This document shows positions 49,574 to 61,311 of a DNA stretch of 64,000 nucleotides, in pieces. The translations under genes were made by a program, and so were the position numbers. Each line of letters starts with the position of its first letter. Positions within the stretch are counted from its first letter, which is position 1. The notes beneath the pieces are model-generated. The model ran no database searches. It was not told where the DNA came from and worked only from the letters and a program-made list of their open reading frames with translations. Origin of the DNA: Methanosarcina thermophila TM-1 (GTDB lineage: Archaea > Halobacteriota > Methanosarcinia > Methanosarcinales > Methanosarcinaceae); contig NZ_CP009501.1 in the NCBI RefSeq assembly GCF_000969885.1, positions 434,001 to 498,000 of the forward strand, written 5' to 3'.

Positions 49574-50758
49574 ATGGCAAAAAAAGTTGCACTTGCATAT
49601 TCAGGAGGGCTTGACACCTCGGTGTGCATCCCCATCCTCAAGGAAAAGTACGGGTACGATGAAGTAATTACAGTCTCGGTAGATGTAGGGCAGCCTGAAG
49701 AGGAAATCAAAAGGGCGAATGCAAAAGCCGAGAAGATAAGCGACAAACATTACACAGTAGATGCAAAGGAAGAGTTCATAAGAGACTACATCTTCCCCTT
49801 AATCAAAGCCAACGGAAGCTACGAAGGCTATGTTATGGGCACATCGGTTGCCCGACCCCTGATTGCGAAAAAAGTAGTAGAAATTGCCAGAAAAGAAGGT
49901 GCAGTTGCCCTTGCGCATGGCTGCACGGGAAAAGGCAATGATCAGCTCCGCTTCGAAGCCGTTTTCCGCCAGACCGATATGGAAGTCATCGCCCCAATGC
50001 GGGATATGAACCTGACCCGCGAGTGGGAAATCGAGTACGCAAAAGAGCACGGAATCCCGGTGGAAGCCACAAAATCCAAACCCTGGAGCGTTGACGAAAA
50101 TATCTGGAGCCGCAGCATCGAAGGCGGCAGGCTTGAAGACCCCTCCTTTGTCCCGCCAGAGGAAATCTACGAGTGGACAACCTCTCCTGAAAAAGCCCCT
50201 GACCAGCCCAGGATTATTGAGATCGGCTTTGAAGCCGGCGTTCCAGTCTCCCTTGACGGCGAAAAACTCAGCGGCTACGACCTTATAAAGAAACTGAACG
50301 CCATCGCAGGCGAAAACGGCGTCGGCAGAACCGATATGATTGAAGACCGCGTGCTGGGCTTAAAAGCCCGCGAAAACTACGAACACCCCGCTGCAACCGT
50401 CCTTCTCGCAGCCCACGCCGACCTCGAAAAACTCGTCCTGACCCGCAGCGAACTAAAATTCAAGAAGATCGTCGACGACCAGTGGTCCGAAATGGCATAC
50501 GCCGGCCTTGTGGACGACCCCCTTTTTGCCGACCTCAACGCCTTTATCGACAAATCCCAGGAAAGGGTCACAGGCACAGTAAAAGTGAAGCTCTACAAAG
50601 GCGCCCTCACAATCCTTGCCCGCAGTTCGCCAAATGCCCTGTATTCCGAGGATCTGGTTTCGTTTGACAGCAAGACCATTGACCAGAAGGATGCAGAAGG
50701 GTTTGCGAAGTATCACGGGTTCCAGGCGAGGATGTACAGGAAAGTGATGGATAGGTAA
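49574..50758 (+). CDS. argG: Argininosuccinate synthase
   Basis: This enzyme condenses citrulline and aspartate with ATP in arginine synthesis. The 394-residue length is normal. The PP-loop [13 protein letters not shown] is at the N-terminus. The [14 protein letters not shown] segment (about 115) and [17 protein letters not shown] are the family's substrate and ATP contacts. GGGGTAG stands before the ATG. Codons in the second half are distinctly richer in C at the third position than in neighbouring genes, which may reflect high expression or a different history. Confidence 0.96.
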
Positions 50759-51079: not shown

Positions 51080-53881
51080 TTGAAAAACTTGAAAACTATT
51101 TATATACAAGCACAAGACAGAAGGCGGCGAGAGAAACTTATTAAAATTGTAGATAAGCTTAATAACAAAGATAAATCGGACAGTGATCTCCAAAACATTT
51201 GGAGGCAGTATATCGAATTAATAGCTGGTGGTAATGATACAGCTACATCATTTGCAATACTTATACTAAAGACAGTAATTTCACGTATTCCTGATAAATA
51301 TCAAGCTTGGGAAGACCTTCTCAGAGTGGTCTCGAGAGCAAATAAATTTCCTATAGAATTGTCAGAACCCATTTTCTATCATATTTTTGAATATCTTCCA
51401 AATAAACAAATAGCCTGGGAAGATTTGTACAAGTTAACGAGTAATAATAAAATAAATGTGAGATTAATTGCAGCATTTGTATTAGGTGACTTATTTTCAC
51501 TCGTTCCTGATAAGCAAAAAGCATGGAAAGATCTGCACAACTTAGCGTGTAGTGAAGATATTTATATTCGAAAAGGAATCGCTAAATCTATAGGTACTGT
51601 GTTCCCAAATATCTTGAATAAACAGGAAGCATGGACTGATCTTCAGAAATTGGTTTGTGATCAAAATGCTTCTGTGAGGATAAGTGCAATACATTCAGTT
51701 GATTCTGTATTTCCTTATGTTCCAGATAAACAGAAAGCGTGGGAAGATTTACAGGGATTCATAACTGATACAAATGTCCACATAAGATTTATTGCAATAG
51801 GTCTCTTAGATTCAAAGTTAATTGCTTCAAATTTTACTTATGCTCATAATAGTGAGCAAACGTGGAAAAATTTACTGAAAATAGCAACTGAAGAAGAAGA
51901 AAAAGATTGGCTAATAAAGTTTAGTGAGTCGAAAGCGCTTGCTACATTATATCTGTATATTCCAAATAAAGAACGTGCTTGGGAAGATTTACATAAGTTA
52001 GTGAACAACAAAAGTGAGCATTTAAGAGAATGTGCTGCAAAATGTACTGGTATTGCTTTTCAGTACCTTAAGGATAAAGCACAAGTTTGGGAAGATTTGT
52101 ACAGATTAGTCAATGACGAAGATAGTTCTGTAAGAAGTGGTGCAGCGGCTTCTTTTGGAATTGCTTTTCAATATATTGAGAATAAGACACACGCTTGGGA
52201 AGAGCTACATAGATTAGCTAATGATGAAGATAGTTCTGTAAGAAGCAGTGCAGCAAATTCTATCGGGACTGCTTTTCAATATATTGAGAATAAAGTACAA
52301 GCGTGGGAAGATTTGCATAGATTAGTTGATGACGAAAATGATTCAGTAAGGAGTGCCGTGGCAAGTTCTTTAAGTTCTGTTTTCCGAAATATTGGAGATA
52401 CGAGGCAGGCTTGGGAGGACTTACATAAGCTAGCAAACGATAAAAATGAATCTGTAAGAATAAATGCGGCAAATTCTATTGAAACTGCTTTAAAGTATAT
52501 CGAAAATAAAAAACAAGCTTGTGAGACATTACATAATCTATTAGAAGATAAAAGTAAGAGGGTTAGGTTTGCTGCATTATTTACGACAGTTTTCTCTTTT
52601 TCCAATATCGCAGATCAAATTCAAGCTTGGAATGATTTGCTAAAACTCACAAATGATCAAGATTATCTTATTCGTGCTAGTGTAGCATCTTTACTTTACC
52701 TTGCTTATAATGATATGAAGGAAGATAAATCCAAGTGGGAAGACTTACACAGGTTAACATATCACCATGACATGCATGTTAGAGGAGGAACAACAAGATC
52801 AATTTGCTTTCTTTTTCCAAACCTTATCGATAAACAACAAGCTTGGGAAGATCTTCATAGACTTGTTAAAGATGAATCTAGTCTTGTTCGGGAATGGGTT
52901 GCTGAATCTTTAGAAGGTTCTTTCTCTTATTTGCCTGATCAGAAACTAGCATACGAGGATTTAATGAAACTTGCTAACGATGAAGATGCTGATGTAAGGA
53001 TAAACGCAAATCATTCTCTTGGAAAAATATCTATCTTTAAGGCTTCAGAAGCAGAAACTGAAGAAAAGTATAGAGAAGAGCTAGAAAATGCGATTGAGTT
53101 CTTTGATAAATCGTCTAAAGAATCTGTTTTCCACAAAACATCACCATCTAAATTTTGTCTACCATTTTACCGCTCATTTCACACAATAATTTTTGAAAAA
53201 TCAAGTGCCGACGAAGAAGTTGAGAGATATCTAACTGAGGCTAGGAAAGCAATAGAAAGATCTAAAATAAAGGAATTACTTTTTGAAGCTATTGAAAACC
53301 TCGCTAAAACTTTAAGAGAAGTTCAAGAATCTAAAAAACATGATCAAAAATTCAATAGAAGTGAAATTGATTATTATAGAAGATACTTTGATCGTGTAGA
53401 GAAGCTCATGAGAGATGCCGAAGAGTTAGCACCATTTGCTACAAAAACTGTAATAAAAGGTCTTCCCATTTTTGATCGAAAGTTAAACTCCCTTCTCGAA
53501 GAAATTCGGGAAAAAGCAAAAACTGCGTGTAGGGAATCAAAAGGTACTGATACAGAAGAAATTGCATGCGCTGTCAGTAGAGAGGTCCAGAAATGGGAAA
53601 TTGGTAGTCAGGAAGAAATGAATTTGTATGTGGAAAACCTCGTTCTGGTTTTGAAATCTAAAATTCCTCATACTCCTGAAAACAGAGAAATTCTTGAGAG
53701 AATTGAGTTATTGAAAGATGAGAAAAACCTTACAAAACAATATAGTATTCTGCCTACTATTATTGGATTGATACCAACTGTAAATGTGATCCCAGAGGAA
53801 GCAGTTACTAACAGGTTTGATGACCTAAAAAGAGACATCAGTAATTTCAACGAGAAACTTGATCAAGTAATTATATCTTAA
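51080..53881 (+). CDS. HEAT-like repeat protein (open to an in-frame TAA)
   Basis: This large protein of 933 residues has about 16 repeats of roughly 37 residues with the consensus PDKQxAWEDLHRLxxDE, then VRxxAAxSLG. These form a HEAT-type alpha solenoid from residue 70 to 660. A charged coiled-coil-like C-terminal region follows (about 665-930). The TTG start has GGTG with seven-base spacing. The same repeat family begins at 63.5 kb. The frame continues in phase for 80 more codons after the TAA at 53879-53881 (to 54124), so the gene may be truncated by a nonsense change. The function is unknown; lineage-specific repeat proteins of this kind can be sensors in conflict systems, but that is inference. 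Confidence 0.8.
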   Translation: MKNLKTIYIQAQDRRRREKLIKIVDKLNNKDKSDSDLQNIWRQYIELIAGGNDTATSFAILILKTVISRIPDKYQAWEDLLRVVSRANKFPIELSEPIFYHIFEYLPNKQIAWEDLYKLTSNNKINVRLIAAFVLGDLFSLVPDKQKAWKDLHNLACSEDIYIRKGIAKSIGTVFPNILNKQEAWTDLQKLVCDQNASVRISAIHSVDSVFPYVPDKQKAWEDLQGFITDTNVHIRFIAIGLLDSKLIASNFTYAHNSEQTWKNLLKIATEEEEKDWLIKFSESKALATLYLYIPNKERAWEDLHKLVNNKSEHLRECAAKCTGIAFQYLKDKAQVWEDLYRLVNDEDSSVRSGAAASFGIAFQYIENKTHAWEELHRLANDEDSSVRSSAANSIGTAFQYIENKVQAWEDLHRLVDDENDSVRSAVASSLSSVFRNIGDTRQAWEDLHKLANDKNESVRINAANSIETALKYIENKKQACETLHNLLEDKSKRVRFAALFTTVFSFSNIADQIQAWNDLLKLTNDQDYLIRASVASLLYLAYNDMKEDKSKWEDLHRLTYHHDMHVRGGTTRSICFLFPNLIDKQQAWEDLHRLVKDESSLVREWVAESLEGSFSYLPDQKLAYEDLMKLANDEDADVRINANHSLGKISIFKASEAETEEKYREELENAIEFFDKSSKESVFHKTSPSKFCLPFYRSFHTIIFEKSSADEEVERYLTEARKAIERSKIKELLFEAIENLAKTLREVQESKKHDQKFNRSEIDYYRRYFDRVEKLMRDAEELAPFATKTVIKGLPIFDRKLNSLLEEIREKAKTACRESKGTDTEEIACAVSREVQKWEIGSQEEMNLYVENLVLVLKSKIPHTPENREILERIELLKDEKNLTKQYSILPTIIGLIPTVNVIPEEAVTNRFDDLKRDISNFNEKLDQVIIS

Positions 53882-54124
53882 AAATCGGGAATTAGTCAGG
53901 AACTTGTTATTACTGCTGGAGGGCCGATTCCACACTTTAGTATCGATCATGTCGTTACCATTTCATTACAAGAAATATCATATCCTGAACTTGAAGAAGA
54001 TCTGGAGAAAATAAAAGGAGAAACAATAGATAAACTGTCCAAACTTCCAAAAAGGTTAGGTGAAAAGATAGAAGAACATCTAATTCAAAACAGAATGTAC
54101 GATGTTCTCAAAAAACTGATCTAA
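53882..54124 (+). other. In-frame C-terminal extension of the HEAT-like protein beyond the TAA
   Basis: After TAA the same frame reads KSGISQELVITAGGPIPHF and continues to KLPKRLGEKIEEHLIQ and a final DVLKKLI before the next stop. The composition is protein-like (alternating charged helices), and an 80-codon open stretch is unlikely by chance in DNA this AT-rich. It has no plausible start of its own. It is best read as the original C-terminus of the upstream gene. Confidence 0.5.
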
Positions 54125-54215
54125 AATAACATATTATATTAATTATTAATGAATATATATAGAAATTACTTATAAAGTGCTACTAATTTATATACTATTT
54201 AGTGTACTTGTTTTT

Positions 54216-55442
54216 ATGAAATTACTGTTGAATTATCACGTGCCTGGTTTGGGGAAATTAAGTGCACAATTATATGAAAATTCAAGCGCTACTTATTTGT
54301 TACTAAATTCTAATGATCACATTAAGAGAATGAGGAATATAGAACAACTCGGAGTGATCCATAATGTTTATGAAGGAGTTCATCACTCTCGTTGGGAGTA
54401 TGTAATGACCCAATTGGGTCTTTTACACAGGTTATATCCTTCCGACAAAAAAGCGGGTGGGAGACCGCTAGAAGGTTGGGGTTTAAACTCAGACATCGAA
54501 TTTTTAGATACAAGATTTTCAGGTACAGAAGTGATCCAAATATGGATACTTCTATCAAATGCAGGGCATCTACCAGGTACTTTTTCAAGTGAAAAAGCTC
54601 TTATGAAATACATAATTAAAGATTCTCGTATAAAGGAAATTTTAAGAAATTCATTAAAAGATGATAATGTAAAGTTGTATTTTGATTACATTTTGGAAAC
54701 AGAAGATATTTATAATTTTAACAAAGTTTTATCTTTCTTTTTTTTAGAGCATTATCGAGATCAAGATCCAGAATTAGTCGATTTACTAATTGAGGTACTT
54801 AAATTCTATTGTATCGGATGTGATTCTCTTAAAAAAGAAGTAACTCCTGAAAAAATGATAAGTCTAGATAAAAAAAGATCTAATTTTTTGTTAATATTTA
54901 ATAGACTGAGACAAATTTCTTATTTATATCTTGATTCTTTATATGGACCAGTGCCATTTGATTTTGATTTGCCTTCAATTTTAGTAAACTTACCAGATCA
55001 TATAAACGATTTGTTTATTGGTGATGGAGATCTAGTTCAAACTCTTAACTCCTTTGATTCATTTCTTTCTAATACGATATATCAATCCGAAAAATCTTTA
55101 CAGGCTCATGGCTATCATATAAAGAATGTCACGAGCAAAATAAAAAATAAATCAAAAAAAGTAAATACCGAAAAAGAATTGTATGAGTTTTTAATAGATA
55201 ATTCAAACTTTGAGCCCCAATATACAAATTTACAAAAATACCAAACAATTAGATTTTTATTAGATATTATTCCAGGTTACTCAAAAATATATAAAAAGAT
55301 ATTTAATTTTGAGACAGAAGACTCTTTAAACAAAAAATACGGGAGTACTAAGTGTATATTTACATTAGAACCTAATATAAAAAAAGATACTTATATGATG
55401 TCTCTTTCTTTCTCTGAAAGTGTACAGATAATCAATCGTTAG
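54216..55442 (+). CDS. Degenerate HD-domain-like protein, gene 1 of a two-gene nuclease unit
   Basis: This protein of 408 residues has a helical pattern resembling HD phosphohydrolases: VHHSRWEYVMTQLGLLH near residue 55 aligns with the first metal-binding histidine region, and WILLSNAGHLPGTFSSEKAL near 110 aligns with the LLHDIGH motif. The catalytic His-Asp is replaced by Ser-Asn, so it may bind rather than hydrolyse nucleotides. The remainder is helical and Lys/Asn-rich. A GTG at 54177 would add 13 hydrophobic residues. A TATA-like element at about 54187-54198 would place the transcript start near ATG 54216 (leaderless). The nuclease-like gene follows 17 bases later. Strong AT bias suggests horizontal transfer. 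Confidence 0.72.
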   Translation: MKLLLNYHVPGLGKLSAQLYENSSATYLLLNSNDHIKRMRNIEQLGVIHNVYEGVHHSRWEYVMTQLGLLHRLYPSDKKAGGRPLEGWGLNSDIEFLDTRFSGTEVIQIWILLSNAGHLPGTFSSEKALMKYIIKDSRIKEILRNSLKDDNVKLYFDYILETEDIYNFNKVLSFFFLEHYRDQDPELVDLLIEVLKFYCIGCDSLKKEVTPEKMISLDKKRSNFLLIFNRLRQISYLYLDSLYGPVPFDFDLPSILVNLPDHINDLFIGDGDLVQTLNSFDSFLSNTIYQSEKSLQAHGYHIKNVTSKIKNKSKKVNTEKELYEFLIDNSNFEPQYTNLQKYQTIRFLLDIIPGYSKIYKKIFNFETEDSLNKKYGSTKCIFTLEPNIKKDTYMMSLSFSESVQIINR

Positions 55443-55459
55443 TCGTTCTTGGTAAATTT

Positions 55460-56089
55460 ATGAAGGATTTAATTGAACTAAAACAAACATTTACAAAAGA
55501 AAATCCTTTTGTTACTCTTAAACCTAATATATTTAATTTATATATAGAATCCATGTTTGATAAAATATTTTCACAGCTAATACTATTTTTCTTAAAGCAA
55601 ATTATCGATAGTGATTATATATATAAATATGATAATTACGACTCGTCAAAGATATCTTGCATTGGTACTTTAGGATCGAAAAATGCAGCCATTCTATTGG
55701 AAAATTACTGCGAAAATCATGAGAATATTTCGGAATCTAGGCTTCATGAAATAAAGTCAATGGTACAAGTACTCAGTTCAATAGGCTATAAAGGGAATAT
55801 CATTGTTACATGTGATAGAATAAAGATACTTGATATGGATAGAAAAATGGTAACTGATTTAGATGGATTAGCTGTAGGTTTCTCAAAGAATAAATTTTCA
55901 GTTTTATTGATAGAAGCAAAGAACCAACGAAAAAGAGGTCAGAGTGCTTCAATAAAGCAACTAAAAAGAAACATTGACAAATTAAATCTTAATACCACAA
56001 TCGAGTCTAGTATCAGTTGTGTAGAAAACTATTGTGCATACTCATTTACGCAGATAGACGGGAACAAATACAGTAAAATACATAGATAA
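55460..56089 (+). CDS. Putative PD-(D/E)xK nuclease, gene 2 of the unit
   Basis: These 209 residues end in a restriction-endonuclease-like core: TDLDGLAVGF (Asp135) followed by FSVLLIEAKNQRKRG (Glu152, Lys154). This is the spaced D...ExK metal site on two beta strands, then the Gln/Lys-rich helix expected after it. The N-terminal 110 residues are helical with no known motif. It is 17 bases from the HD-like gene and shares its AT bias, so the two probably act together. The expected role is DNA or RNA cleavage; the trigger and target are unknown. Confidence 0.68.
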   Translation: MKDLIELKQTFTKENPFVTLKPNIFNLYIESMFDKIFSQLILFFLKQIIDSDYIYKYDNYDSSKISCIGTLGSKNAAILLENYCENHENISESRLHEIKSMVQVLSSIGYKGNIIVTCDRIKILDMDRKMVTDLDGLAVGFSKNKFSVLLIEAKNQRKRGQSASIKQLKRNIDKLNLNTTIESSISCVENYCAYSFTQIDGNKYSKIHR

Positions 56090-56673
56090 TTATCTAGAGA
56101 AAGTCACCACTAAAGCGAAGTATATTTCCCATTAAGAGACTAATTATCAAATAGTCTACAAGGCTAAACTAAATATTGCGCAGCCCTGTAAAGTCCCCTT
56201 ATAATGCTGCGAAAATCATGGGTTTTTGGTTCTCTTTTCTTAACATTCTCTTCACAAACGTGTTCGGGGAAAATTTCAGCAGACCGCCGGCAGGAAAAAT
56301 ATATTTCAACTGAACTGGAAACAGGAAGATTTCTCATTTCTTATTCGGCGGTCCAGTTTTGACAGCTTTTCTTGATCCATAATTCACTTGAAAAATATAA
56401 CTTTAATCAGAAAAACCCTCCCCAAAGGAAAATATCACCTCGATCTAAAAAAGCCCTGCAAAGGGCTCCTTCTAAAGCTGCAAAATCACAGCTTTTTAAT
56501 CTCACTTTGATTTAAGAACATATTCCGGGGAAATTCAAGCAGACTGCTGGCAGGAGAAATATATTAAACTGAATTGGACGTGAAAAAGATTTCACCTTTC
56601 CTTAGTAATTATAAATACTACAACCACAGAATACTATAACATATCAAAAAGAGATTAAACAGAGCCTGAAAAA
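56090..56673 (+). repeat. Two direct copies of a dispersed repeat of about 180 bp
   Basis: Copy a (about 56180-56325) and copy b (about 56406-56590) share ordered blocks. These are AGCCCTGCAAAGTGCCCCTT, a GCTGCAAAATCA-like block, AACGTGTTCGGGGAAA, CAGCAGACCGCCGGCAGG and a terminal AAATATATTAAACTGAA that looks like a TATA element. Copy b lies just upstream of the MntA/HepT pair and could supply its promoter. No gene is present. Confidence 0.75.
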
Positions 56674-56976
56674 ATGCCGGAAAACCGAGAAGCTGAAATC
56701 TATATCCGGAAACTCCATGAAATGCTCCCTGAGCTTAAAGAAAAATATCATGTCAGTTACCTTGGGATTTTTGGGTCTTACATAAGAGGAGAACAGAAAC
56801 CTGGAAGTGATCTGGATATACTTGTTGAGTTCAGCAAAACTCCTACAATTTTTAAATTTGTCAACCTTGAAAACTATCTTTCGGAAGCTCTGGGAATCAA
56901 AGTAGATCTGGTTATGAAAGACGCTTTAAAGCCGAACATAGGCAAACACATCCTGAGTGAAGTTGAAGCTGTTTGA
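56674..56976 (+). CDS. MntA-type nucleotidyltransferase antitoxin
   Basis: This minimal nucleotidyltransferase has 100 residues and the signature GIFGSYIRGEQKPGSDLDIL (Gly34-Ser35, Asp46, Asp48). Antitoxins of this type AMPylate a tyrosine of the partner HEPN RNase and silence it. The ATG follows a repeat copy with a TATA-like end. The stop codon is in the same frame as the downstream HEPN gene and only 12 bases before its likely start. Confidence 0.88.
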   Translation: MPENREAEIYIRKLHEMLPELKEKYHVSYLGIFGSYIRGEQKPGSDLDILVEFSKTPTIFKFVNLENYLSEALGIKVDLVMKDALKPNIGKHILSEVEAV

Positions 56977-56988
56977 AGAGGGATCGAT

Positions 56989-57324
56989 ATTCGCGAAGCA
57001 AAGGACTATATTCAGGATATTTATGACGCAATGGAAGCAGCAGAAGAATTTGTTAGTGGCTGGACATTTGAAGAGTTTACCGAAGACCGCAAAACACAGT
57101 TTGCAGTAATCAGAGCTCTGGAAATCATTGGCGAAGCGGCAAAGAATATCCCATATGATGTGCGTGAAAAATATCCTTTTGTTCCGTGGAAAGACCTGGC
57201 AGGGATACGAGACAAACTGATTCACGCTTATTTTGGAGTAAATCTGAAGGTAGTCTGGTTATCCGTTAAAGAGGGTATTCCAGAAGCAAAACCTTATATC
57301 AAACGCATATTGGATGAAATATGA
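56989..57324 (+). CDS. HepT-type HEPN toxin (DUF86), apparent non-canonical start
   Basis: This HEPN-domain RNase toxin has the active-site R-x4-H-x-Y in GIRDKLIHAYFGV (Arg74, His79) and LEIIGEAAKNIP of the DUF86 family. The first helix is encoded from ATCGATATTCGCGAAGC onward (IDIREAKDYIQDIYDAMEAAEE), but no ATG, GTG or TTG exists between the MntA stop and ATG 57031, which would remove most of helix 1. GAGGG is six bases before the ATT at 56989, so AUU (or AUC 56983) is the best-placed start. Alternatively the original start codon has been lost and the toxin is truncated. Confidence 0.8.
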   Translation: MREAKDYIQDIYDAMEAAEEFVSGWTFEEFTEDRKTQFAVIRALEIIGEAAKNIPYDVREKYPFVPWKDLAGIRDKLIHAYFGVNLKVVWLSVKEGIPEAKPYIKRILDEI

Positions 57325-57330
57325 TTTAGA

Positions 57331-57510
57331 AAAATTCCTCTCAAGAGGAAAAAGAATCGCTTAATCTAAAGAAGCCCTGCAAAGTGCCCCTTATAAAGAT
57401 ACAAATCAGGGTTTTTCAATTTCTCTTTTCGTAACTTTATCTTAACAAGCGTATTCGAGGAAGATTTAAGCAGGCCGCTGGCAGGAAAATATATATTAAA
57501 ACTGAACAGG
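57331..57510 (+). repeat. Third copy of the 180-bp dispersed repeat
   Basis: This is the same block order as the copies at 56.2 and 56.4 kb: AAGCCCTGCAAAGTGCCCC, AACAAGCGTATTCGAGGAAG, CAGGCCGCTGGCAGG and AATATATATTAAAACTGAA at the end. It separates the HepT gene from the convergent TumE gene. The rest of 57325-57614 has no gene. Confidence 0.75.
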
Positions 57511-57614: not shown

Positions 57615-57989
57615 TCATGGATTCGAACTCAGTAGTTTCTTCACCTCACGGAGAACATCTTCTATAAATACTTCGGGAGATTCTCTGGGTTCTGCTTCAT
57701 TTCCTTTATGGATATGATAAGGGAACGTTTTTAAATTTTTCCAGTGTGGAGAATTATCCCAACGCTTTATCATTGCATCCTCTTTTTGCAGGTGATAAGA
57801 ATATCGTCTGAAATCGGGTCCCACACTCTCACTAATCTCCAATAGGTAGCCATCTTTGAGAGTTGCTCTTGCTTTTAAAACCTGGACAGGAGGTTCAACT
57901 ATTGCTTTGAGAACTTTTAATTCAAGTACAATCTCACTGGATGAAAGAGCAGAAACAATTTTGCTTATAGTCATAAGAACTTTTCCCAA
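57615..57989 (-). CDS. TumE-type toxin (DUF6516 family)
   Basis: This protein of 124 residues shows the family pattern: DGYLLEISESVGPDFRRYSY, an aromatic histidine segment YSYHLQKED, RWDNSPHWKNLKTFPYHIH and a C-terminal amphipathic helix (FIEDVLREVKKLL). TumE proteins act as RNase-type toxins paired with a TumA antitoxin. The start overlaps the end of the antitoxin gene by 19 bases; a later start at an ATG for MTISKIVSAL is also possible. The order is antitoxin first, then toxin. Confidence 0.78.
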   Translation of the reverse strand: MGKVLMTISKIVSALSSSEIVLELKVLKAIVEPPVQVLKARATLKDGYLLEISESVGPDFRRYSYHLQKEDAMIKRWDNSPHWKNLKTFPYHIHKGNEAEPRESPEVFIEDVLREVKKLLSSNP

Positions 57990-58291
57990 TATCGTAATGC
58001 TGTAACATAGCTTTCCCAGATTATGAAATCATCCCACTCTTCAAAGTTTTCTTCCTCTACTCTCGATTGGATTCTTTTTTCAAAAGCAGAAAAGTCCATA
58101 CCGTACTTCTTCTCCATTTCAGCTACCTTTTTACCATAGTAATCGATCTTTTGTTCAGCTTGGTCATGCACAAGTTGCTTTAATGCCTCCTGTTCGTCTT
58201 TATATAGACCTACTTTCACCATGTCACTTATAGGTTCAAAGATTTTACGAGGAATTTTTACGTACTCAATAGCTTCTCCCAATAGTATCAC
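57971..58291 (-). CDS. TumA-type antitoxin
   Basis: This 106-residue helical protein lies directly upstream of and overlaps the toxin gene. EYVKIPRKIFEPISDMVKVG resembles a ribbon-helix-like DNA-binding start, followed by KDEQEALKQLVHDQAEQKI and a long charged helix that likely clamps the toxin. The C-terminal WDDFIIWESYVTALRYWEKF is typical of antitoxin tails. Confidence 0.72.
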   Translation of the reverse strand: MILLGEAIEYVKIPRKIFEPISDMVKVGLYKDEQEALKQLVHDQAEQKIDYYGKKVAEMEKKYGMDFSAFEKRIQSRVEEENFEEWDDFIIWESYVTALRYWEKFL

Positions 58292-58375: not shown

Positions 58376-58630
58376 TTTAAGAGATTAAAGCAAACCTTCA
58401 GTTGGAGAAATATATTAAAACTTAGTTGAACGTGAAGAGAAATTCACTTCCAATCAGAAAAACCCTCCCCAAAGGAAAAGATCACTTCGAGCAAAAAAAA
58501 AGCCCTGCAAAGTGCCCCTTCTAAATCTGCAAAAATCACGGGTTTTCAATTTCACTTTTTTAACTTTATTTTAACAAACGTGTTCGGGGTAAATTCCAGC
58601 AGACCGCCGGCAAGAAAAAATACTTTGAGC
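58376..58630 (+). repeat. Fourth and partial fifth copies of the 180-bp dispersed repeat
   Basis: A tail fragment (58376-58445, with GGAGAAATATATTAAAACTT) is followed by a nearly complete copy (58446-58630) with AGAAAAACCCTCCCCAAAGG, AAGCCCTGCAAAGTGCCCC, AACGTGTTCGGGG and CAGACCGCCGGCAAG. All copies in this region point the same way. No gene lies in 58292-58717. Confidence 0.75.
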
Positions 58631-58717: not shown

Positions 58718-59851
58718 TTAGTCTGCGGCTTTTATTTGTTTATTTTGATCCGCAAAAACATCCATTTCTGCCTGACTCCATATCTGCCACCGTCGGTATC
58801 TGTCATATAGAGTGACATTCAGGGTCAGGAGTAGGATGAAGAATGAAGCATCAAGAAGGTTGATCGAACCATCGAACCTTGTTATCAGGAAGTCATAGGC
58901 AAGCACGATCCCAAAGTTTACGACAGACATTACTATGAACTCCTGAATTATTGATTTCCAGTGAGTTCCTCGCCTGGCAAACCACTGACTGAGTTCGGTA
59001 TTTATTATAATAAGAATCGATAAGCCGATTGCAACCTGAAAACTGCTTGCACGGACTTCTGGAAGGATCTGAGCAAAAATTGTGCTTAACAGGGAAACAA
59101 GTACAATTTTTTCGATCAACTCATAATGCAGGAAGTCATCGAAAAATCTTTGGCTTGTATAATTGTCCCTAATGTTCCTTGCATGCAGGCTGTAAAACGG
59201 GAAATGCTTGTAACTGGCTGCAATTATTAAGCCGGGCCGCATAGGGGGCAAGTCTCGTAAAAGCCACCAGCCCAGGAAGATAAGGAGAGCAGCCCAGGCG
59301 ATCAGGACTATTACATTTGAGGGGTTTGCCCGAATCCAGTCAGTCGTGTCCATCTGAGCAATGTGAATCCAGTATTCCTGAGGCAATTTGGCGAAGACCC
59401 AGATAAAAGCCGTAGCGGTGATCAACCTGTCTTTTGTAAGTACCTTAGGGTCCCATTTCAGGCGGACAAGCTCATAGAAAATGAAGAAATATTCAAAGAC
59501 ATTGGAAAAAATAAGCAATAGCAGACGCAGGTGTGTTATCTCAAAAATGGCTACGCCTATCAGCCTGTAGTAAAAAAGGAAACGCCCTGCTTCAAAGGCA
59601 AAGAAGTTTGACCAGTTTCTAAGAGTTGAAAGATAGGTAATTGCAAGATAATAAATATCCAGAGCCTTGTCATATTCCTGGTAATCTACCAGAGGCAGGT
59701 TAGTAAACTCCTGAAACAATGTCTGGTCTACCATGTCAAGGACTAAGGAAAGTATAATGCCTGGAAGCGGATAGCTGGGAATGGTAAGCGGTATCAAAAA
59801 ACGAGCCGCGACTACAGCCCAGAATATAAACAGATCCGATGTCTCCGGCAT
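58718..59851 (-). CDS. Multi-spanning membrane protein, paralog 1
   Basis: An integral membrane protein of about 377 residues with eight to nine hydrophobic segments, for example LFIFWAVVAARFLIPLTIP, ILLRLLLLIF-type stretches and IIIINTELSQWFA. Conserved polar patches between spans (PQEYWIHIAQMDTTDWIRAN and RGTHWKSIIQEF) are almost identical in the next gene, so they probably form the functional core. No known family was recognised. The ATG at 59851 has GGAGG about ten bases before it; an upstream TTG at 59881 adds ten residues. It follows the repeat array and is transcribed towards it. Confidence 0.8.
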   Translation of the reverse strand: MPETSDLFIFWAVVAARFLIPLTIPSYPLPGIILSLVLDMVDQTLFQEFTNLPLVDYQEYDKALDIYYLAITYLSTLRNWSNFFAFEAGRFLFYYRLIGVAIFEITHLRLLLLIFSNVFEYFFIFYELVRLKWDPKVLTKDRLITATAFIWVFAKLPQEYWIHIAQMDTTDWIRANPSNVIVLIAWAALLIFLGWWLLRDLPPMRPGLIIAASYKHFPFYSLHARNIRDNYTSQRFFDDFLHYELIEKIVLVSLLSTIFAQILPEVRASSFQVAIGLSILIIINTELSQWFARRGTHWKSIIQEFIVMSVVNFGIVLAYDFLITRFDGSINLLDASFFILLLTLNVTLYDRYRRWQIWSQAEMDVFADQNKQIKAAD

Positions 59852-60201
59852 TATGAGTCTTCCTCCTTTCCCGGCACTCAACCGGATCAGATATAATCAC
59901 ATCTTATCCGGCTTGAAAACCTACTTTCAAAATATACCTGAGAACTGTTACCCAATTTATATCATTCGGTATCTGTAGGAAAAGCGTAAAATCCTGAATC
60001 TTTAGCTCAGTAATGCGGAGCTGGTAAATCTTAGCTTAGCGGTAGTTCACATTTCTCATTTCTGATAGCTCTCATTTCTGATAGCTCTCATTTCTATTTC
60101 TCACTCTATTTCTCACTCTATTTCTCACTCTATTTCTCACTCTATTTCTCACTCTATTTCTCACTCTATTTCTCACTCTATTTCTCACGAAACCTCTCAA
60201 A
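59852..60201. other. Spacer between membrane paralogs with tandem repeats
   Basis: No gene was seen. Two copies of TTTCTGATAGCTCTCA (60057-60092 region) run into eight perfect copies of a 12-bp unit at 60093-60188. Confidence 0.6.
60093..60188. repeat. 12-bp tandem repeat, eight perfect copies
   Basis: TCTATTTCTCAC is repeated eight times without variation or spacers, ending just before the stop codon of the second membrane paralog. Perfect identity implies recent expansion. Because it is transcribed downstream of that gene, its strongly biased strand (pyrimidine on plus, purine on minus) might affect termination. Confidence 0.93.
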
Positions 60202-61311
60202 TTATTTTACTTTTCCTGAATCAACTGCTTCCTGGCTCCTTACATGCATTGTTCGATACCTGTCATAGAGCGTCACATTAAGTGTCAGGAGGAGGACGAA
60301 AAAGAGTGTGCTAAAAAGGTTGATTGAACCGTCGTATCTGGGCAGCAGGAAATCGAATAAAAGAATTATGCCGAGGTTCACCATGGACATGACTACAAAT
60401 TCCTGGATAATAGACTTCCAGTGAGTTCCATGCTTTGCAAGCCAGTGGCTTAGTGCCGTGTTTATTACTATCAGGATGGCCATACCTATCGCAAGCTGAA
60501 GATTTGTTGACCTCACCCCGGGAAGTATTTGGGCAAAAATTATGCTGAGGAGTGATACCAGCATTATTTTCTCAAACAGAGCATTATCAAAGAATTTTTT
60601 TGAGGAATTAACCGCTGGAAAACTGATTTTTATTCCCTGTTCAGACCTTTCCCTCTGGATTACAGGAACAGGATCGGCTGCAAATGAGAGCCCTGATTTC
60701 ATGGGAGGCAGGTCTCGCAGCAGCCACCATGCCATGCCAAGCAAGAATAAAGCCCATCCAAGAAGAATTAATGCGTTTGAGGGGTTTGCCCGAATCCAGT
60801 CCGTCGTATCCAGCTGAGCGATATGGATCCAGTATTCCTGCGGCAGTTTGATAAAGATCCAGATAAGTGCCGTAGCAGTGATCAGTTTATTTTTTGTAAG
60901 CACCATCGGATTCCATTTCAGACGAATTGCCTCGTAGAAGATAAAGAAGTATTCGAAAGTGTTTGGGAAGATAAATAATAGCTCCCGCAAATGCGTCAGC
61001 TCGAAAAGAGCTGCACCAACCAGCCTGTAATAGAAAAGGAAACGGCTTATCTTAAAAGCGAAGAGATTTGACCAGTTTCGCAGGGTTGAAAGGTAGGTTA
61101 TAGCCAGGTAATAATTGTCAAGAGCCTTATCATAGCTCTGGTAGCCTTCAAGGGGCAGGCTAGTGAAAAGCTGGAAGATCGTCTGGTCTACCATATCAAG
61201 AATAAGGCAAGATATTACTGCTGGAAGAGGGTATATTGGAATAAAGAGCGGAATAAAGAAACGCAGCATAACTACAGACCAGAAAATCAACATATCCGAA
61301 GTATCCGGCAT
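60202..61311 (-). CDS. Multi-spanning membrane protein, paralog 2
   Basis: This 369-residue tandem paralog of the preceding membrane protein keeps the same layout of eight to nine spans and the same inter-span blocks (PQEYWIHIAQLDTTDWIRAN, HGTHWKSIIQEF). The main difference is the loop after WWLLRDLPPM, which is unrelated between the two copies, so specificity may lie there. GGGGGT precedes the ATG. The function is unknown. Transcription probably starts near 61312-61400 and may read through both genes. Confidence 0.8.
   Translation of the reverse strand: MPDTSDMLIFWSVVMLRFFIPLFIPIYPLPAVISCLILDMVDQTIFQLFTSLPLEGYQSYDKALDNYYLAITYLSTLRNWSNLFAFKISRFLFYYRLVGAALFELTHLRELLFIFPNTFEYFFIFYEAIRLKWNPMVLTKNKLITATALIWIFIKLPQEYWIHIAQLDTTDWIRANPSNALILLGWALFLLGMAWWLLRDLPPMKSGLSFAADPVPVIQRERSEQGIKISFPAVNSSKKFFDNALFEKIMLVSLLSIIFAQILPGVRSTNLQLAIGMAILIVINTALSHWLAKHGTHWKSIIQEFVVMSMVNLGIILLFDFLLPRYDGSINLFSTLFFVLLLTLNVTLYDRYRTMHVRSQEAVDSGKVK

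Follow-up and report, generated by a model that had tools for sequence, protein, structure and literature searches.

Introduction

The closest described systems to the locus considered here are SAMHD1 and the bacterial HD dNTPases, defence systems built on HD proteins, and restriction-type nucleases of the PD-(D/E)xK kind. Fungal SAMHD1 binds its metal through H64, H103, D104 and D192, and its R61, the equivalent of human R164, forms a salt bridge to the dNTP phosphate (PMC12042053). Two further reports describe nucleic-acid binding by SAMHD1 and its aid to end resection (PMC7854603, PMC9640623). In Clover, a nucleotide-controlled HD protein whose HD site is active is a known defence effector (PMC12265719).

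Here we analyse a 64,000-nucleotide stretch of the Methanosarcina thermophila TM-1 genome (contig NZ_CP009501.1, positions 434,001 to 498,000), referred to as the window, whose own numbering is used below unless another contig is named. We propose, with a probability of roughly 0.6, that one gene of this window is a decayed copy of a rare defence effector combining a dead-HD sensor with a PD-(D/E)xK nuclease and carried as hotspot cargo. The fusion of a dead HD domain with a nuclease domain is a rare, undescribed candidate defence protein, the parts of which are of known kinds.

Results

Two open reading frames and their fused homologues

As the initial annotation had reported, two AT-rich ORFs separated by a gap of 17 bases lie on the plus strand at 54177-55442 (ORF A, 421 aa counted from a GTG) and 55460-56089 (ORF B, 209 aa), with GC contents of 28.8% and 28.4% compared with 41.3% for the window. 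The motifs described with them are also present, namely LLSNAGH in ORF A, in which Ser-Asn stands in place of the HD His-Asp, and D135...E152-x-K154 in ORF B at that numbering, where D133 is found as well. Family alignment places the start of ORF A at ATG 54216 (408 aa) and not at GTG 54177.

The description of these ORFs as a two-gene system did not survive comparison with relatives. In a congener (Methanosarcina G003) a single 635-aa protein spans the homology of both, ORF A aligning with its N-terminal 420 residues (49%, E 1.5e-115) and ORF B with its C-terminal part (35%, E 2.6e-24), which excludes chance ORFs for the HD part and the nuclease part alike. Frame B already reads open at 55418, ahead of the called ATG 55460, and its codons before that ATG, CTDNQSLVVLGKF, line up with the corresponding part of the fused homologues. 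Because homology in ORF A ends at SFSES, exactly where CTDNQSLVVLGKF of frame B takes over, the alignment and the side-by-side translation point to a single loss of reading frame near 55419-55423 (-1 relative to ORF A), within a 25-base overlap of the two frames (55418-55442, plus strand). Based on these comparisons, we conclude that the window ORFs are halves of one gene, split by a frameshift. Its N-terminal part (54216-55442, plus strand) comprises a predicted SAMHD1-type pseudo-HD domain and a helical linker, as supported by hhalign, PDB profile matches and the residue table; its C-terminal part, in the other frame (55418-56089, plus strand), comprises a PD-(D/E)xK-like nuclease domain, as judged from the homology upstream of ATG 55460, the motif and a structural model. 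This copy has probably lost its function, or is a two-piece remnant at best.

Nine other homologues are whole or nearly so, and all nine carry both parts in one ORF of about 560-635 aa. They comprise the Methanosarcina protein (G003), a fused gene without an internal stop from another member of the window organism's phylum (Halobacteriota G082), four members from the Bacteroidota-MAG phylum sample, two from the Phycisphaerales-MAG sample, and one on a Peribacillus plasmid; the six members of these two groups are the Bacteroidota MAG locus L042, the Phycisphaerales MAG locus L043, and G568, G604, G549 and G958, found by sampling the phyla of these two MAGs. The last of these leaves its contig before the E-x-K motif, and its nuclease half is incomplete. 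A pair of separate, co-occurring genes was rejected because of these relatives, the two parts being fused in 9/9 other members. Two partial copies were also seen: a broken fragment of the fusion gene in G177 and a nuclease end alone on a Priestia plasmid.

The family is rare, being present in 2/60 related genomes and in no more than about 1% of the genomes sampled, and it spans archaea, Bacteroidota, Planctomycetota and Bacillota. It was absent from the viral contigs (four scans) and the phage records searched. The Bacteroidota MAG member (L042:2517-4367) is 50% identical to the archaeal G082 member, closer than most archaeal pairs, which suggests a recent transfer or a misbinned contig. No Pfam, PADLOC or NCBIfam model matches family members at meaningful E-values, nor did ORF A or ORF B of the window give a meaningful match to Pfam, PADLOC (PADLOC-DB 2.0.0) or NCBIfam, and no description of an HD plus PD-(D/E)xK fusion was found in the literature searched, which was a partial collection.

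An HD domain stripped of its metal ligands

Profile comparison assigns the N-terminal half to the SAMHD1/dNTPase type of HD domain. The family profile of this half aligned with canonical HD proteins by hhalign at 95.3% probability (E 2.3e-8 over 264 columns), and its best PDB profile matches were fungal SAMHD1 (9mr6, E 4e-4), EF1143 (2o6i, E 1.6e-3) and an Aquifex protein (2hek, E 0.021). A full-length model built from a 4-row alignment reached a pLDDT of 48, giving no confident structure for the HD half, and its Foldseek search was uninformative.

The degenerate HD domain proposed by the initial annotation is confirmed by this profile comparison together with the uniform loss of the metal site. 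In 10/10 members all four metal ligands are replaced and the canonical H...HD...D set is gone: the first His has become Tyr (10/10), the second His is Ser, Leu or Phe, the adjacent Asp is Asn (10/10), and the final Asp is Arg (10/10), the last of these assignments relying on how hhalign aligns the region of the conserved DS. The phosphate-binding Arg of the HxR position (human R164, fungal R61), by contrast with these replaced ligands, is kept in 10/10 members. In the window, according to the residue table, the former ligand positions are Tyr62 (54399-54401), Ser114-Asn115 (54555-54560) and Arg232 (54909-54911), and the retained phosphate-type residue is Arg59 (54390-54392), all on the plus strand.

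Of the four positions that once held ligands, three fall among the 11 invariant columns of the 283 scored (hypergeometric P 1.7e-4), which argues for selection of an altered pocket rather than random decay. Fixation of such replacements in archaea as well as in Bacteroidota, Planctomycetota and Bacillota implies that the pocket probably remains in use. With its ligands gone, the pseudo-HD site would be non-catalytic and hydrolysis is not expected of it; we infer that the pocket probably serves for binding instead.

A putative PD-(D/E)xK nuclease domain

A D-x16-18-E-x-K signature is present in the window, in the 7 other members whose sequence covers this region in full, and in the Priestia fragment; in the window D135, E152 and K154 (ORF B numbering of the initial annotation) are encoded at 55862-55864, 55913-55915 and 55919-55921 on the plus strand. 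The nuclease domain of the window gave one good model out of five (pLDDT 78.6, pTM 0.80), in which a helix, 3-5 strands, a helix and further strands follow one another and the D and E-x-K residues lie on neighbouring strands. Its order of elements, alpha-beta-beta-beta-beta-alpha-beta, may be compared with the alpha-beta-beta-beta-alpha-beta of the restriction-endonuclease fold.

Database comparisons of this half were negative. A Foldseek search of the model against PDB returned nothing below E 0.017 and no nuclease among the listed matches, hhalign gave no match to two Mrr-type neighbours, and no Pfam nuclease model matched significantly. Of the nuclease assignment made earlier, the D...E-x-K site holds; the order of elements in the model fits it, and the fold search gave no counterpart. 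On motif and predicted topology, the C-terminal half is likely a PD-(D/E)xK domain, which would make the fusion protein a putative nuclease.

A variable region downstream of argG

The split gene lies downstream of argG (argininosuccinate synthase; 49574-50758, plus strand; Pfam), the 3' end of which borders a variable hotspot in related genomes. The argG 3' end recurs in G002 (three copies) and G007, where it borders changing cargo (loci L112 and L115), and G007, G001, G014 and G008 have MNT/HEPN and/or TumE modules downstream of argG, separated from it by differing cargo. The cargo of these relatives includes PDC-S37, SIR2 proteins (one of them PDC-S25), NACHT, Fic and DUF4238 proteins; in G007 it includes a 1588-aa DUF4011-helicase-MTES_1575 protein (L112:3831-8597; PADLOC candidate PDC-S37, 1773 bits). 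Based on these arrangements, the argG 3' flank appears to be an archaeal defence insertion hotspot.

In the window the cargo of this hotspot consists of the fusion gene and a HEAT gene. The defence setting that had been assumed for the ORFs is upheld. Pfam likewise bears out the neighbours named at the outset, a HEAT protein upstream and MNT/HEPN and TumE-type modules downstream. The MNT nucleotidyltransferase/HEPN (HepT-like) toxin-antitoxin module (56674-57324, plus strand; Pfam) is a conserved flank of the hotspot, being found after argG in G007, G001 and G014, where the HEAT-fusion segment is missing or other cargo is present. The TumE-type toxin (57615-57989; Pfam TumE, E 2.1e-21) and its probable partner antitoxin (57971-58291) form a module on the minus strand (57615-58291) that is conserved in G007, G014 and G008.

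Around the toxin-antitoxin modules we observed intergenic repeats of about 40-70 nt with the core GCAGACCGCCGGCAGGAAAAATATATT (56230-56298, 56490-56558, 57421-57489 and 58381-58419), as well as a second pair of intergenic repeats (56390-56452 and 58437-58499). Farther along, 58718-59881 and 60202-61311 encode tandem, related multi-spanning membrane proteins, the former without a Pfam match.

The HEAT-repeat gene (51080-53881, plus strand; Pfam HEAT_2, E 1.6e-35) belongs to a family common in Methanosarcina. Its ORF is cut short by an in-frame TAA (53879-53881), a position that paralogues read through with Leu (in most) or a similar residue, and is followed in the same frame by an orphaned C-terminal tail of 80 codons (53882-54124, plus strand), which was recognized by tblastn against related loci and is kept in at least 10 HEAT paralogues. 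The HEAT gene adjoins the fusion gene in the window and in G003, where the orientation differs. It was rejected as a dedicated partner because of this difference and because its family is too widespread, occurring in 29/40 related genomes compared with 2/60 for the fusion family. Since G014 likewise has a HEAT gene after argG, the HEAT gene may be an older resident of the hotspot. A second HEAT-family gene lies just past the right end of the window (G000 C1:498151-498705; 41% identity in the C-terminal part).

Neighbourhoods of the other members

By raw count, restriction or HerA-type genes are found in the vicinity of 4 or 5 of the 9 other loci. The L042 fusion gene precedes hsdR by 87 bp in a type I RM locus that also carries an integrase, and that of G549 directly follows a Type ISP enzyme, YhcG and an MNT/HEPN-like pair. 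The G003 gene is near a methylase-HerA set, the G082 gene adjoins an HSDR_N_2 gene, and the Peribacillus plasmid copy is near an AAA/OLD-like ATPase and an integrase. Clear defence neighbours are missing at 3 or 4 of the 9 loci: L043, G568 (near tig-clpP-clpX) and G958 (near type II secretion genes) have mainly housekeeping neighbours, and perhaps G604 should be counted with them, where a short contig shows a Fic gene.

Discussion

A proposed mechanism

We propose as the most likely model that the fusion is a ligand-gated nuclease in one polypeptide, in which the HD pocket would act as the sensor or oligomer switch and the PD-(D/E)xK domain as the effector. The dead pocket may bind a phosphate-bearing ligand, such as a (d)NTP, a signalling nucleotide or a nucleic-acid end, which could be contacted by the retained Arg and by the Arg found in place of the metal-binding Asp. 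Capture or release of this ligand would alter the oligomer and free the attached nuclease, which could then cut invading DNA, host DNA, or both. The initial annotation had envisaged a pseudo-HD protein switching on a nuclease partner; because both parts are fused in relatives, the separate partner falls away and the switching idea becomes an intramolecular model. In the window, the frameshifted fusion gene and its prematurely stopped HEAT neighbour would represent decaying cargo downstream of argG.

A more specific proposal is possible, if doubtful. A new class of single-protein defence effector may use its dead SAMHD1-type HD domain, with the fixed Tyr-Asn-Arg set, as a nucleotide sensor that gates the fused PD-(D/E)xK nuclease, such that, for example, virus-altered dNTP pools would lead to DNA cleavage.

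Alternative explanations

The break in the window copy can be read in other ways. A genuine split, in which two proteins with a coupled start at 55460 act as a complex, as first envisaged, would explain why each half is uninterrupted and keeps its conserved residues and why a start codon lies 17 bases past the stop, and the divergence of the nuclease half relative to its HD half does not clearly exceed that of other pairs (36/50% to G003, compared with 34/40% and 29/38% between other members). All other members are fused, however, and homology covers the codons that lie after the frame break and ahead of the called ATG, and these must therefore once have been coding; by eye, moreover, neither ATG is preceded by an evident ribosome-binding motif, and we regard a true two-protein complex as quite unlikely. 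Programmed frameshifting could unite the halves in vivo and would make use of the 25-base overlap, but a scan of this overlap found no X XXY YYZ heptamer, the sole nearby heptamer (55380) would meet a TGA at 55415, and no other member requires such an event; with the slippery site missing, we rejected this explanation as highly improbable. A sequencing or assembly error, leaving the gene intact in the organism, would fit a sole frame break that amounts to a one-base change in an otherwise open gene. The junction has no long homopolymer, however, and the independent in-frame stop of the HEAT gene is a substitution, a type rarer as a sequencing error. Independent lesions in two adjoining genes favour local decay, and we consider an error in the record rather unlikely.

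A different function for the whole family is also conceivable, namely that of a housekeeping or repair regulator whose dead HD domain binds nucleic acid that the nuclease would trim. Some members do reside amid housekeeping genes (G568 and G958), and such a role would recall the nucleic-acid binding and end resection ascribed to SAMHD1 in the reports cited above. The patchy distribution of the family nevertheless speaks against it, as do the plasmid copy, the RM and HerA neighbours, the location as hotspot cargo and the local decay, which are unlike housekeeping genes. A housekeeping or repair role thus seems unlikely, and we continue to favour a decayed copy of a dead-HD nuclease effector.

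Implications and comparison with known systems

If our proposal is correct, the uniform exchange of metal ligands has converted a dNTP-destroying immunity fold into a sensing or regulatory module that is coupled to a nuclease. Immunity would then have a compact nucleotide-sensing system encoded by a single gene, of which archaea, Bacillales and Bacteroidota offer intact homologues. The interest lies in this family and its fixed pocket replacements rather than in the broken window copy, and the Methanosarcina argG 3' flank would be a place to seek archaeal defence genes.

Two comparisons concern the neighbours. The PADLOC model HEAT_CxxC_PDDEXK matches the window HEAT protein weakly and over the HEAT repeats only, and Methanosarcina HEAT-repeat proteins, which adjoin the fusion gene in two genomes, are yet widespread without it. 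Like the restriction-type PD-(D/E)xK nucleases (Mrr_cat, HSDR_N, YhcG), genes for which neighbour the fusion gene at several loci, the C-terminal half has a D...E-x-K site and a comparable predicted order of elements; it differs from them in showing no significant profile match to Mrr-type neighbours, Pfam models or solved folds.

The dGTPase defence systems and CloA of Clover (PMC12265719) share with the fusion family a SAMHD1-type HD protein in a defence setting. They keep the HD motif and deplete dNTPs, whereas the site of the fusion appears dead and its likely effector is the nuclease. Nor does a CloB-like NTase consistently adjoin the fusion gene; membership in Clover (CloA-CloB) was rejected because the HD ligands are gone and the NTase near the window copy is the MNT of the HEPN module, which also occurs without the fusion gene. 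A further comparison is with SAMHD1 and the bacterial HD dNTPases themselves (9MR6, 2O6I, 2HEK), with which the family shares the QLG...HxRxEx motif, the [GA]H after the HD position, the (R)DS helix and the phosphate-binding Arg, and from which it departs in the replacement of the four ligands and in the attached nuclease domain.
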